From positions 1 through 64,000 of the forward strand of contig PGXU01000006.1 of NCBI GenBank assembly GCA_002839335.1: DNA of 64,000 bases, written 5' to 3'. The DNA is from Spirochaetae bacterium HGW-Spirochaetae-4. GTDB taxonomy: Bacteria > Spirochaetota > Spirochaetia > Sphaerochaetales > Sphaerochaetaceae. The position numbers and the translations under genes are program-made. Below the pieces are notes generated by a model. That model searched no databases. It saw only the letters and a program-made list of their open reading frames with translations, and was not told the origin of the DNA. Positions 15,794 through 20,067 of this stretch are shown here, piece by piece (the stretch's first letter is position 1; each line of letters begins with the position of its first letter).

Positions 15794-15809
15794 GGTACCA
15801 GGTACGTTA
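15794..15809. repeat. GTACC-W-GGTAC palindrome at the end of acr3
   Basis: GGTACCAGGTACGTTA; the final TTA is the TAA stop of the acr3 gene on the minus strand. With 15677-15689 it encloses an AT-rich 104-bp spacer between two convergent genes, a layout typical of REP pairs. Confidence 0.7.
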
Positions 15810-16856
15810 CGAAAACCACCTCTTCGTATTGTTCGCGATCCTCACCAACGTCAGCATGACGGGAACCTCGACCAGGACCCCGACCACCGTTGCGATTGTC
15901 GCACCCGAGCTGAGTCCGAACACCGATATGGCGACAGCGACAGCAAGTTCAAAAAAGTTCGAAGCACCGATCATCCCGGCTGGGGCTGCGACATCATGGG
16001 GCAGCTTCAATGCCCTCGCCCACAGGTATGCCACGAAAAAGATGAAAAACGTCTGGATAACCAAGGGAATGGCAATCAACACGATATTCAGCGGATTGTC
16101 CACGATTGTCTGGCCTTGGAACGAGAATATGATGACAAGGGTGAGCAACAACCCGATGATTGTGACATTCCCGAACTTGGGGATGAAGGTGTTCTCGAAA
16201 TAATCCAACCCGCGGTTCTTCGTGATAATGACCCGGGAGAACCATCCCGCCCCAAGGGGAATCACGACGAACAGGACCACCGAAAGGAACAAAGTCATCC
16301 ACGGAATGGCTATGCCGCTTATTCCCAACAACAGCCCTACGATCGGCACGAAAGCCGCAAGGATTATCAAGTCGTTGGTCGCGACCTGTACCAGCGTATA
16401 GGCCGGGTTTCCCTTCGTCAGGTGGCTCCATACGAACACCATGGCCGTACATGGGGCAGCACCCAGAAGAACGGCACCCGCCAGATATTGTCGCGCCAGG
16501 TCCCGTGGAATAATCGATCGGTAGACCACATAGAAGAAGAATATGGCGATACCGTACATGGTGAAAGGCTTGATCAGCCAGTTGGTGACCCAGGTGACCA
16601 CAAGTCCCCTGGGATTCTGCCCGACCTTCCTGATACTGTGGAAATCGACCTTGAGCATCATGGGATAGATCATCAACCAAATCAGGACCGCTACCGGAAT
16701 CGAGACGTTGGCATATTCGAATTGGGAAAGGAAGTCGGGAATCCCCGGAAGAAATACTCCTACAAGCACACCGACAACCATACACAACAGGACCCAGAGT
16801 GTCAGATATCTCTCAAAAAACCCTATTCCGCTTGTGGAATTCTTCATCCTGTCCAT
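15807..16856 (-). CDS. acr3: ACR3-type arsenite efflux permease
   Basis: A 349-aa membrane protein of ten predicted helices. Family marks are the Cys-containing LLGAAPCTAMVFVWSHLTKGNPAYTLVQVATNDLIIL and the closing ASNFFELAVAVAISVFGLSSGATIATVVGVLVEVPVMLTLV, both highly conserved in ACR3. It extrudes As(III) using the proton gradient. AGGAG lies upstream of ATG 16856; a GTG just before is less likely. The ArsR gene 56 bp upstream on the same strand is its probable regulator. Confidence 0.93.
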   Translation of the reverse strand: MDRMKNSTSGIGFFERYLTLWVLLCMVVGVLVGVFLPGIPDFLSQFEYANVSIPVAVLIWLMIYPMMLKVDFHSIRKVGQNPRGLVVTWVTNWLIKPFTMYGIAIFFFYVVYRSIIPRDLARQYLAGAVLLGAAPCTAMVFVWSHLTKGNPAYTLVQVATNDLIILAAFVPIVGLLLGISGIAIPWMTLFLSVVLFVVIPLGAGWFSRVIITKNRGLDYFENTFIPKFGNVTIIGLLLTLVIIFSFQGQTIVDNPLNIVLIAIPLVIQTFFIFFVAYLWARALKLPHDVAAPAGMIGASNFFELAVAVAISVFGLSSGATIATVVGVLVEVPVMLTLVRIANNTKRWFS

Positions 16857-16911
16857 CACACATCTCCTATCTAGAAACCGTATGCACGATTTTTGTGAAC
16901 ATACCCGTATC

Positions 16912-17280
16912 CTACGGTTTCTCTACTTGCTCCGCTTGGGAATCGCACGAATCCATGCCACCACAACAAGAACTCCGCACAACCGGACGGTTTTCCGGTT
17001 TCGGGATACGACCCAGATAATCGATCAAACCACTGAATTCTGCCTGGTTCAACGAATAATGCATCCATTTGCCTTTCCGCACCGAGTCGACCAGATTGCT
17101 TCCAGTGAGCATCTTCATGTGATAGCTCAGCGTCGGTTGGGTTATCTTGAACGATTCCAGGATATCGCAAGCACAGAGGGGCCCGTTCGCCAACAGACTG
17201 ATGATATCGAGCCGCGTCTCGTCTGAAAGAGCCTTTAGCTTCAACAGATGCTGGGAAATTTTGGTAACGTTCTCATCCAT
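16912..17280 (-). CDS. arsR: ArsR-family arsenic/metal-responsive repressor
   Basis: A 122-aa winged-HTH repressor. The helix carries PLCACDILESFKITQPTLSYHMKML, with the CxC pair in the position of the ArsR As(III) site (usually CVC). The C terminus is Cys-rich (SSCCGGMDSCDS). GGAG stands 8 nt before ATG 17280, so unlike three other regulators in the window it has a normal leader. It heads the acr3 operon. The promoter carries a short inverted repeat (see 17300-17330). Confidence 0.9.
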   Translation of the reverse strand: MDENVTKISQHLLKLKALSDETRLDIISLLANGPLCACDILESFKITQPTLSYHMKMLTGSNLVDSVRKGKWMHYSLNQAEFSGLIDYLGRIPKPENRPVVRSSCCGGMDSCDSQAEQVEKP

Positions 17281-17299: not shown

Positions 17300-17330
17300 C
17301 GATACTATACGTTATATCGATTTTTTTCAA
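17300..17330 (-). promoter_or_regulatory. Promoter with inverted repeat for arsR-acr3
   Basis: On the minus strand: -35 TTGAAA (17330-17325), 17-bp spacer, -10 TAGTAT (17307-17302). CGATA (17300-17304) and TATCG (17315-17319) form an inverted repeat that overlaps the -10, as expected for ArsR repression. Confidence 0.55.
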
Positions 17331-17374: not shown

Positions 17375-18178
17375 TCAGTTGGTCGCGATCCACTCCTTGA
17401 CCTTCCTCTCTATGGCGTCTCGGATCGGACGGATACCGGCCAGCTTCTCGTCATCTGTCCCCTGAATCGCACTGGGATCGGGAAAACCCCAATGCATCCG
17501 CTCATGCTTTCCCGGGAACATGGGACAACGCTCGGCGCTGCTTTCGTCACAGACGGTGACCACATAGTCGAACACTTCCTTGCGGTCGATATATTCCTTG
17601 GCCGGTTTCGCGTAATGACCATCCATGGAAACCCCGACCTCCGCCATGGCCTGCACGACCAGGGGATTCAATTTCCCCGCCTCGATACCACTGCTATGGA
17701 CATCGAAACGGTCTGCGGCATACTGCCGAACAAATGCCTCGGCCATCTGGCTCCGGGCCGAATTGTGGATACAAACGAACATGATTCTTGTCTTCTTCAT
17801 GATTGGTAACTCCTTTGCCAAGGTACAACAACCGCTCGAGCAGGCAGGTGCCGGGCTTTCCGCATCCCCATCCACATCTGAATCGGCTGGCGCTGAATCG
17901 AATCTGTTGGCGCAATACATCATGTCGAGGATGCACGGCATGGCAAGGGTACAGTTCACCTGGGTCCCATCCCGCTCCATGTCGATGATGCCAACACTTT
18001 TCAACAACGACAGGTGCTTGGACGCCGCGGACTTGTTCAACCCGAGATTGTCGGCCAATTGGCACACGCACCACGGGCGCTCACGCAGAGCCTCCACCAT
18101 TGCCAAACGCATGGGGTGTCCCAACACTCGCAATAACCGGGCTGCACTTTCGAATCGTTGCTCGTCCTTCCTGTCCAT
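17375..18178 (-). CDS. ArsR-ArsC fusion: repressor joined to thioredoxin-type arsenate reductase
   Basis: A 267-aa protein. Residues 1-92 are an ArsR winged HTH (ARLLRVLGHPMRLAMVEALRERPWCVCQLADNLGLNKSAASKHLSLL), with Cys pair CVC as inducer site. A 30-residue acidic linker ends in SSGCC. Residues 127-267 are a complete low-molecular-weight-phosphatase-type ArsC: CIHNSAR (C-x5-R), then VCDESSAERCPMFPG with the two resolving Cys, then HWGFPDPS. No stop codon separates the parts. AAAGGAG stands 9 nt before the in-frame ATG 17800, so free ArsC may also be made. The start at 18178 has no ribosome site and is probably leaderless. An open frame to 18784 upstream is not used. Confidence 0.88.
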   Translation of the reverse strand: MDRKDEQRFESAARLLRVLGHPMRLAMVEALRERPWCVCQLADNLGLNKSAASKHLSLLKSVGIIDMERDGTQVNCTLAMPCILDMMYCANRFDSAPADSDVDGDAESPAPACSSGCCTLAKELPIMKKTRIMFVCIHNSARSQMAEAFVRQYAADRFDVHSSGIEAGKLNPLVVQAMAEVGVSMDGHYAKPAKEYIDRKEVFDYVVTVCDESSAERCPMFPGKHERMHWGFPDPSAIQGTDDEKLAGIRPIRDAIERKVKEWIATN

Positions 18179-18184
18179 ACATCC

Positions 18185-18257
18185 AATGTTGCAAAAAGTG
18201 GAAACTTTGTCAACCTTTTGTATTGACAAGCCCCCAACAGTTTCCAATAATGGAAAC
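18185..18257. promoter_or_regulatory. Compact divergent promoters with GTTTCCA operators
   Basis: Minus: -35 TTGACA (18213-18208), 17 bp, -10 AACATT (18190-18185), 6 nt from the ArsR-ArsC ATG. Plus: -35 TTGACA (18223-18228), 17 bp, -10 AATAAT (18246-18251). A perfect repeat, GTTTCCA-ATAA-TGGAAAC (18240-18257), covers the plus -10. A half site GTTTCCAC (18205-18198, minus) lies in the minus spacer. The fusion repressor is the obvious ligand. Confidence 0.8.
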
Positions 18258-18272
18258 ATAAGGAGAAATACC

Positions 18273-18512
18273 ATGGTAATCCAGATTCTCGGGACAGGTT
18301 GTCCAAAATGCAAAGCCCTTGAGGCGAACGCGCGCCAAGCTATCGAAGCCGGTGGCATTGAAGCTACCATTGAAAAGGTGACCGAAATCGATCGGATCAT
18401 GGACATGGGTGTTATGATGACCCCAGCCTTGGCTATCGATGGCGTGGTGAAGAGTGCCGGCAAGTTGCTCAACAAGGACCAGATCCTTGCGTATGTGAAG
18501 GAAGGCAAATAA
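18273..18512 (+). CDS. Thioredoxin-like small redox protein
   Basis: A 79-aa protein of the redox-active disulfide protein 2 (MTH895-like) family: MVIQILGTGCPKCKALEANARQAIE, with active-site CPKC, and cis-Pro segment GVMMTPALAIDG. AAGGAG precedes ATG 18273. It is the first gene of an operon that diverges from the ArsR-ArsC fusion and shares its operator. Since the fused ArsC is of the thioredoxin-dependent type, this protein is a candidate reductant for it; that link is inference. Confidence 0.85.
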   Translation: MVIQILGTGCPKCKALEANARQAIEAGGIEATIEKVTEIDRIMDMGVMMTPALAIDGVVKSAGKLLNKDQILAYVKEGK

Positions 18513-18880
18513 TGGGATGCGCCTGTTCTTGTGGTGGCGATTGCACCGTCAAGCTCCTCTACGCATGCTCGGGAGCCGCGAATACCGGCCTGCTTGCCGA
18601 CCAGGTGGCCCGTACGCTGGCATCCGATGGAAAAGGTTCCATGACTTGTCTTGCCGCGGTGGGAGCCGACCTTTCGGGATTCCTCGCATCGGCCAGAAGT
18701 GCCGACAAGAATGTGGTGATCGACGGATGCAAGGTCGCCTGCGGTGCAAAGATATTCACGGAGAAGGGATTGCCCTTCGAGCACTACATCACCACCGATT
18801 TCGGCGTACTCAAGGGACAGACCCCCATAACCGCTGAGGTGATAGAGACCGTTGCACTGCAGATCGGCAGGATGATGTAG
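18512..18880 (+). CDS. DGC-domain putative zinc/metal-binding protein
   Basis: A 122-aa protein with the DGC-domain pattern: Cys-rich N terminus (MGCACSCGGDC), LLYACSGAANTGLLADQVARTL, and the name-giving DGCKVACGAKIF. The family is thought to bind metal through these Cys; its function is unknown. Its ATG overlaps the TAA of the thioredoxin-like gene (TAATG). It is often found, as here, with a YraQ/ArsP-type permease. Confidence 0.82.
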   Translation: MGCACSCGGDCTVKLLYACSGAANTGLLADQVARTLASDGKGSMTCLAAVGADLSGFLASARSADKNVVIDGCKVACGAKIFTEKGLPFEHYITTDFGVLKGQTPITAEVIETVALQIGRMM

Positions 18881-18882
18881 CC

Positions 18883-20067
18883 ATGGCGAACAAGGAACTC
18901 TCTCCCAACAAGAAACTATTGGTTATCGCAGGTATCTTCCTGACGGTGTTCTTCATCCCCTTCACCAATGCACGGGTGGCTGGAGCGATCCAGGAAGCTT
19001 TCCTGATGCTTGCGGACTATGCGCACGAGCATGTGTTGCTTTGCGTGGTTCCCGCGTTGTTCATCGCCGGAGCGATCGTGGTGTTCCTCAACCAACAGGC
19101 GGTCATGAAGTATCTCGGGCCGAAGGCGAACAAGTTCGTCGCCTATTCGGTGGCTTCGGTATCGGGAGCGATCCTCGCCGTCTGCTCCTGCACGGTGTTG
19201 CCGCTGTTCAAGGGCATCTACAAGAAGGGAGCCGGACTTGGTCCCGCCGTATCGTTCTTGTACTCGGGCCCGGCGATCAATATCCTGGCCATCGTGCTCT
19301 CCTACAAGGTGTTCGGGTGGCAGCTCGGCCTTACCCGCATGATCGTGTCGATCGTGTTCGCATTCATCATCGGCCTGATCATGCAGGCGCTCTTCCGCAA
19401 GGAGGATGAGAAGCGGCTGGCTGACGAACGCTTGTTCCAGAACATGGGTGGCCCCGATGCCCGTTCGCTCGGGCAGATGGTGCTGTTCATGTTCTCCATG
19501 ATCGGCATCCTGGTGTTCCTCAACTGGGCTCCCTCCAGCGGGGCAAGTTCGGGCTGGGACTTCATCTACCGCTCCAAATATTGGATTACCGGAGCTTTCG
19601 GCCTGTTGCTCGTCTACGCGTTGGTGCGGTGGTTCACCAAGGACGAACTGGTCGAATGGGGAGGAGCGACACGCGATTTCGCGCTGCAGATCCTCCCCTT
19701 GCTCTTCGGTGGTGTCCTGGTGGCCGGTTTCCTGCTGGGAAGACCCGGACATGAGGCGCTCATACCCTCGGCATGGGTAGCGTCCCTGGTTGGAGGAAAC
19801 TCGCTGTTCGCCAATTTCTTCGCTGCGATTAGCGGTGCATTCATGTACTTCGCCACCCTCACCGAGATTCCGATAGTCCAGGGACTGCTGGGAGCGGGCA
19901 TGGGACAGGGGCCCGCACTAGCCTTGCTGCTCGCGGGACCGAGCCTCTCGTTGCCATCGATGTTGGTGATCGGCGGGGAGTTGGGATTCAAGAAGACAGC
20001 AGCGTATGTCGCGTTGGTGGTCGTCTTCTCAACGGGTGCCGGAGTAGTGTACGGGTTGGTGGCTTGA
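18883..20067 (+). CDS. YraQ/ArsP-family permease
   Basis: A 394-aa protein with about ten membrane helices in two halves. The first half has the conserved VCSCTVLPLFKGIYKKGAGLGPAVSFLYSGPAINILA. The second half has FANFFAAISGAFMYFATLTEIPIVQGLLGAGMGQGPALALLLAGPSLSLPS. This is the DUF318/YraQ family, which includes ArsP, the methylarsenite exporter. It starts 2 bp after the DGC gene. The shared ArsR-type operator and the presence of arsM elsewhere in the window make organoarsenical export plausible, but the substrate is inferred. Confidence 0.85.
   Translation: MANKELSPNKKLLVIAGIFLTVFFIPFTNARVAGAIQEAFLMLADYAHEHVLLCVVPALFIAGAIVVFLNQQAVMKYLGPKANKFVAYSVASVSGAILAVCSCTVLPLFKGIYKKGAGLGPAVSFLYSGPAINILAIVLSYKVFGWQLGLTRMIVSIVFAFIIGLIMQALFRKEDEKRLADERLFQNMGGPDARSLGQMVLFMFSMIGILVFLNWAPSSGASSGWDFIYRSKYWITGAFGLLLVYALVRWFTKDELVEWGGATRDFALQILPLLFGGVLVAGFLLGRPGHEALIPSAWVASLVGGNSLFANFFAAISGAFMYFATLTEIPIVQGLLGAGMGQGPALALLLAGPSLSLPSMLVIGGELGFKKTAAYVALVVVFSTGAGVVYGLVA

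Follow-up and report, generated by a model that had tools for sequence, protein, structure and literature searches.

An in-frame ArsR-ArsC fusion gene in Sphaerochaetaceae that retains the ribosome-binding site of arsC

The window analyzed here comprises the first 64,000 nucleotides of contig PGXU01000006.1 from Spirochaetae bacterium HGW-Spirochaetae-4. On its minus strand, a single reading frame runs from an ATG at 18178 to a stop codon at 17375–17377 (17375..18178) and is open throughout its 267 codons. The 267-residue product consists of an ArsR repressor followed by a predicted ArsC arsenate reductase, both with complete domains: Pfam identifies HTH_5 at residues 22–65 and LMWPc at residues 132–263. 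The initial annotation, which gave no strand, had proposed an in-frame fusion of two full domains read without a stop. This is confirmed by the open frame, by the two Pfam domains, and by the retention of the catalytic and sensor cysteines in the respective halves. The frame is not a chance one, because two other genomes are fused at the same junction and two more have the genes in the same frame, split by a TGA. Sequence comparison gave no indication that a frameshift or a misassembly had produced the fusion: the domains are intact, the frame is that of the relatives, and the catalytic residues are kept. A GTG at 18784 was considered as an upstream start and rejected, as it would place the gene antisense to arsE, and a start at ATG 18178, in the same sequence context, is conserved among relatives. 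There were no Rfam matches in the window. Where related loci come from named genomes, these are of the Sphaerochaetaceae (phylum Spirochaetota). We note that a spirochaete-type arsR-arsC-arsE-ArsP locus was also found on a contig (L040) filed under the archaeal MAG Methanococcoides sp. EBM-47, a label that is probably a binning error.

The ArsR half (residues 1–95, 17894..18178, minus strand) is a winged-helix domain that scores well above the family cut-offs (HTH_5, 46.5 bits against 22; NF033788, 73.3 bits against 55). It contains five cysteines, C37, C39, C76, C82 and C89. All 36 family sequences compared have C37, C39, C82 and C89, whereas C76 and the cysteines of the linker are not invariant, and we infer that the four invariant residues bind the metalloid. 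The protein is not a Type 1 (R773-type) ArsR: where R773 has C32-C34-C37 in the motif CVCDLC, the fused ArsR has WCVCQLAD, with the CxC pair in helix 3 and without the third cysteine. In this respect it resembles ArArsR of Arsenicibacter rosenii, which also has the helix-3 CxC without the third R773 cysteine and has further cysteines in its C-terminal half. In ArArsR, a helix-3 cysteine and two later ones bind As(III), and a pair of cysteines in the tail is dispensable; the essential residues are 41, 80 and 82, as compared with the invariant 37, 39, 82 and 89 of the fused-ArsR family (PMC11868830). This was the only directly applicable report that we found in the literature on Sphaerochaeta ars genes, arsRC2 and leaderless ArsR.

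The linker (residues 96–126, 17801..17893, minus strand) corresponds to the former C-terminal tail of ArsR together with the former stop position. The predicted structure consists of two confident domains joined by a disordered linker, with residues 106–125 having a pLDDT below 50. The initial annotation had described the linker as acidic and Cys-containing. Its cysteines C113, C117 and C118 are not conserved, the linker of the fused gene L036 lacks cysteine, and the cysteines belong to the variable C-terminal tail of ArsR, being present in unfused ArsRs and missing in others.

The ArsC half (residues 127–267, 17375..17800, minus strand) has the residues expected of a thioredoxin-type (pI258) ArsC, namely the CX5R loop C136–R142, the resolving cysteines C210 and C218, and the DP aspartate D234. 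Its score against the NCBIfam equivalog TIGR02691 is 117 bits, below the cut-off of 174.3. Structural matches were obtained to Deinococcus indicus ArsC2 (8p5n; Z 21.8, rmsd 1.7 over 138 residues, 38% identity) and Bacillus subtilis ArsC (1jl3; Z 19.8, rmsd 1.9 over 135 residues, 44% identity). Both share the fold, the CX5R loop and the two resolving cysteines with the ArsC half, but are stand-alone proteins and have one residue fewer between the resolving cysteines, which in the fusion are spaced by 8 residues rather than 7. The fusion contains the only LMWPc domain detected in the genome, and an ArsC of the PF03960 type was not found there. If arsenate is reduced at all through one of the two known cytoplasmic routes, the fusion gene would therefore have to be responsible.

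Downstream of the fusion on the minus strand are a second ArsR, unlike the fused one (16912..17280), which has a promoter-like site of its own at 17330–17302, and an Acr3 arsenite efflux pump (15807..16859; TIGR00832, 383 bits, above cut-off). In a sister genome (L034:5825-8974), some 3.1 kb that is missing from the window lies between arsC and the second arsR, and its frames were judged by eye to be similar to a thioredoxin-like protein, a CcdA-like membrane protein, a permease and a MarR-type regulator. Divergent from the fusion, on the plus strand, are a small thioredoxin-like protein of the ArsE/MTH895 type with a CPKC motif (18273..18512), a cysteine-rich DGC-domain protein (18512..18880), and a permease of the ArsP_1 family (18883..20067), identified by profile match and synteny.

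The intergenic region shared by the fusion and the divergent genes contains two 18-bp operator-like dyads of the pattern GTTTCCA-N4-T(G/T)G(A/C)AAC. The first, GTTTCCACTTTTTGCAAC (18188..18205, minus strand), lies inside the arsR promoter; the second, GTTTCCAATAATGGAAAC (18240..18257, plus strand), is a perfect dyad over the –10 box of the arsE promoter, TTGACA-N17-AATAAT (18223..18251, plus strand). Allowing up to two mismatches, no further copies were found in the window, and most relatives have the same pair of dyads at the same spacing. An ArsR of the fused type adjoins arsE-ArsP also at loci without a neighboring arsC, whether that gene is absent or lies elsewhere (L047, L049, L051, L052, L046 and L048). 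The divergent arsE-ArsP unit thus appears, from this gene order, to be the main target of this type of ArsR. At L047:5340-5500, which overlaps genome locus L028, arsC has gone and arsR keeps a relic of the junction, AAGGAGAAATCTTGA. Between the window and L034, arsE, arsR and arsC differ at 0.61–0.73 of synonymous sites and the flanking DGC, ArsP, CaCA, MscS and Acr3 genes at 0.23–0.36, while identity across the 94-bp intergenic region is 96%; such uneven divergence points to local exchange of genes or to rapid evolution.

The start of arsR was surveyed in 48 distinct ArsRs from members of the Spirochaetota and from a small number of Caldisericota-like genomes. The distance from the first base of a TTGAC (–35) box to the ATG is exactly 35 nt in 39 of the 48 and 34–38 nt in 47, and a Shine-Dalgarno-like word is missing from the last 20 nt before the ATG in 46. 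In the window, the promoter TTGACA-N17-AACATT (18185..18213, minus strand) ends 6 nt before the ATG; similar boxes, with the ATG at the same 6-nt distance, are common to the related arsR genes, and its –10 box matches the consensus at three of six positions. Usual promoter spacing would put the 5′ end of the mRNA at the ATG, so the transcript probably starts at or next to ATG 18178 and would be leaderless.

The arsC start is of a different kind. The initial annotation had noted an internal AAAGGAG 9 nt 5′ of an ATG at 17800, and both are indeed present (17810..17816, minus strand), the ATG being in frame as Met127. An AAGGA-type Shine-Dalgarno sequence precedes arsC in nearly all pairs, split or fused (in L008 it is AGGAGG). 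In the fused genes AAGGAG is coding sequence, read as Lys-Glu (AAG GAG), and it is the sole element of the linker kept in all three, whose linkers do not align. Synonymous differences between the window and either of the other fused genes (L007 and L036) amount to 0.74–0.91 of sites, which is close to saturation, and the retention of AAGGAG against this background supports its continued use. A free 15-kDa ArsC of 141 residues beside the 29-kDa fusion is therefore plausible. We note that the conservation could partly come from descent or from a preference for Lys-Glu, and that, judged by duplex energy alone, this site is neither unique nor the strongest near an ATG in the fusion gene. A leaderless arsR start combined with a Shine-Dalgarno-led arsC start would keep repressor output low and enzyme output higher; such an arsR start, which would be self-repressed and appears to be conserved across spirochaetes, would set this balance.

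The origin of the fusion was examined using 15 distinct arsR/arsC neighbor pairs in which both halves have clear orthologues. Fusion is seen in three of them: the window, a second genome of the same genus (L007 = L045), and L036 (= L099). In the majority of relatives the genes are separate. Two of these (L005 = L034, from the same genus as the window and 78% identical, and L006 = L035) read arsR-TGA-ATG-arsC in a single frame, with one TGA directly 5′ of the arsC ATG. The distance from AAGGAG to ATG is equal in L005 and the window, where ATC occupies the position of the TGA. In the remaining relatives the arsR stop and the arsC ATG that follows it are 6 or 30 nt apart, or the two genes are in differing frames. 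The same-frame pairs make loss of the arsR stop between adjacent genes the simplest history, with the internal Shine-Dalgarno sequence as the inherited ribosome-binding site of arsC. The relatives form a natural series, from separate genes in differing frames, through genes in the same frame divided by one stop, to a fused gene in which the old ribosome-binding site is retained. Selenocysteine read-through of the TGA in the split relatives was considered and rejected, since other relatives have TAA, or other spacings or frames. Among other spirochaetes, inspection by eye of the frames upstream of ArsC in L085, L086, L092 and L094 revealed no recognizable ArsR sequence.

On a tree of ArsR plus ArsC, placement of the three fusions in one clade was rejected (p-AU 0.0046), implying two or more fusion events within the family; a shared origin of the window and L007 fusions gave p-AU 0.497.

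We consider it quite probable that the gene encodes an ordinary repressor relieved by As(III), a tethered active reductase and a free reductase, having arisen when adjacent, co-transcribed, same-frame arsR and arsC genes lost the arsR stop. Ribosomes starting at the leaderless 5′ ATG would produce the fusion, and those starting at the retained AAAGGAG and ATG127 would produce free ArsC. The ArsR half would bind the dyads and repress both the promoter of the fusion gene and that of the divergent arsE-DGC-ArsP genes. As(III), either made by ArsC or taken up, would bind C37/C39 in helix 3 and C82/C89 in helix 5, leading to derepression, and the flexibly tethered ArsC half would reduce arsenate in the ordinary thiol-dependent manner.

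The proposal of an ordinary repressor with a tethered reductase has a neutral variant, which differs from it in selective value only and to which we give an even chance: that loss of the stop was simply tolerated, because the tail of ArsR is unstructured and the Shine-Dalgarno sequence still supplies free ArsC, leaving the attached ArsC as a passenger with no function gained by the fusion. The scattered recurrence of fusions among close relatives whose genes are split fits such an accident, as do the disordered, unconserved linker and the retention of the Shine-Dalgarno sequence. However, L007 is fused on a long branch with both domains under purifying constraint, which argues that the fusion is at least not harmful. 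Another suggestion, in which the repressor's own cysteines would take up the As(III) that the tethered ArsC active site releases, giving an on-the-spot response to arsenate, draws on the presence of two intact active sites in one chain, the more than one independent origin and the existence of other fusions; yet there is no conserved interface or linker, the linker is predicted to be disordered and lacks its cysteines in L036, and free ArsC is probably made too. We regard this coupling as unlikely, and a passenger ArsC as the more likely of the two.

We are similarly doubtful of a broader reading of the two products, in which a fusion made from a leaderless start reports arsenate locally while Shine-Dalgarno-led translation provides surplus free reductase, and in which stop loss has recurred and tethering has been selected. 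The possibility that the genes are naturally separate and the fusion is a sequencing or assembly error gains something from the draft state of the genome (3.6 Mb in 143 contigs) and from the split genes of G001 in the same genus; but the change from TGA in G001 to ATC in the window involves three differences, beyond a single base error, two other genomes are fused, and no frameshift is seen, making an error very improbable.

ArsR-ArsC fusion as such is already known from other bacteria. ArsRC2 of Microbacterium A33 has reportedly been shown to repress its operon. Fusions have been described in Leptospirillum ferriphilum (arsRC), Microbacterium and Sinorhizobium (PMC6205960, PMC4443643), and those of Actinobacteria form ArsC clusters of their own, C4 and C7 (PMC6514093). 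By their published descriptions, these resemble the window gene in having ArsR and ArsC in one protein, but they belong to other lineages. A search of plasmid records gave 24 places with a query coverage of at least 80%. By their annotation, two are separate genes in Deinococcus gobiensis and 22 are single fused genes on Alphaproteobacterial plasmids, one of them filed under another organism name. These (Tistrella, Cereibacter, Martelella, Aliiroseovarius and others) likewise encode ArsR then ArsC in one gene, but have about 28–34% identity to the window fusion and a different ArsR without the CxC pair. Two that were examined (L108 and L109) lie directly before an ArsJ-associated GAPDH gene and arsJ; gapdh-arsJ is an arsenate-handling route without need for ArsC, and the reductase half may there serve another purpose. 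The description of such fusions as rare in the initial annotation thus holds only in relative terms, given three of 15 pairs in this clade, some 22 plasmid genes and further cases in the literature. The closest counterparts are the split pairs of other Sphaerochaetaceae (L034, L035, L037 and L039), which have ArsR and ArsC of the same clades, the same promoter and arsC Shine-Dalgarno sequence, and in most cases also the two dyads and the divergent arsE-ArsP unit, and differ by the stop codon between the proteins. What this case adds to the known fusions is an origin by stop loss that is recent and has recurred, a Shine-Dalgarno sequence inherited from arsC, and a probable leaderless start.
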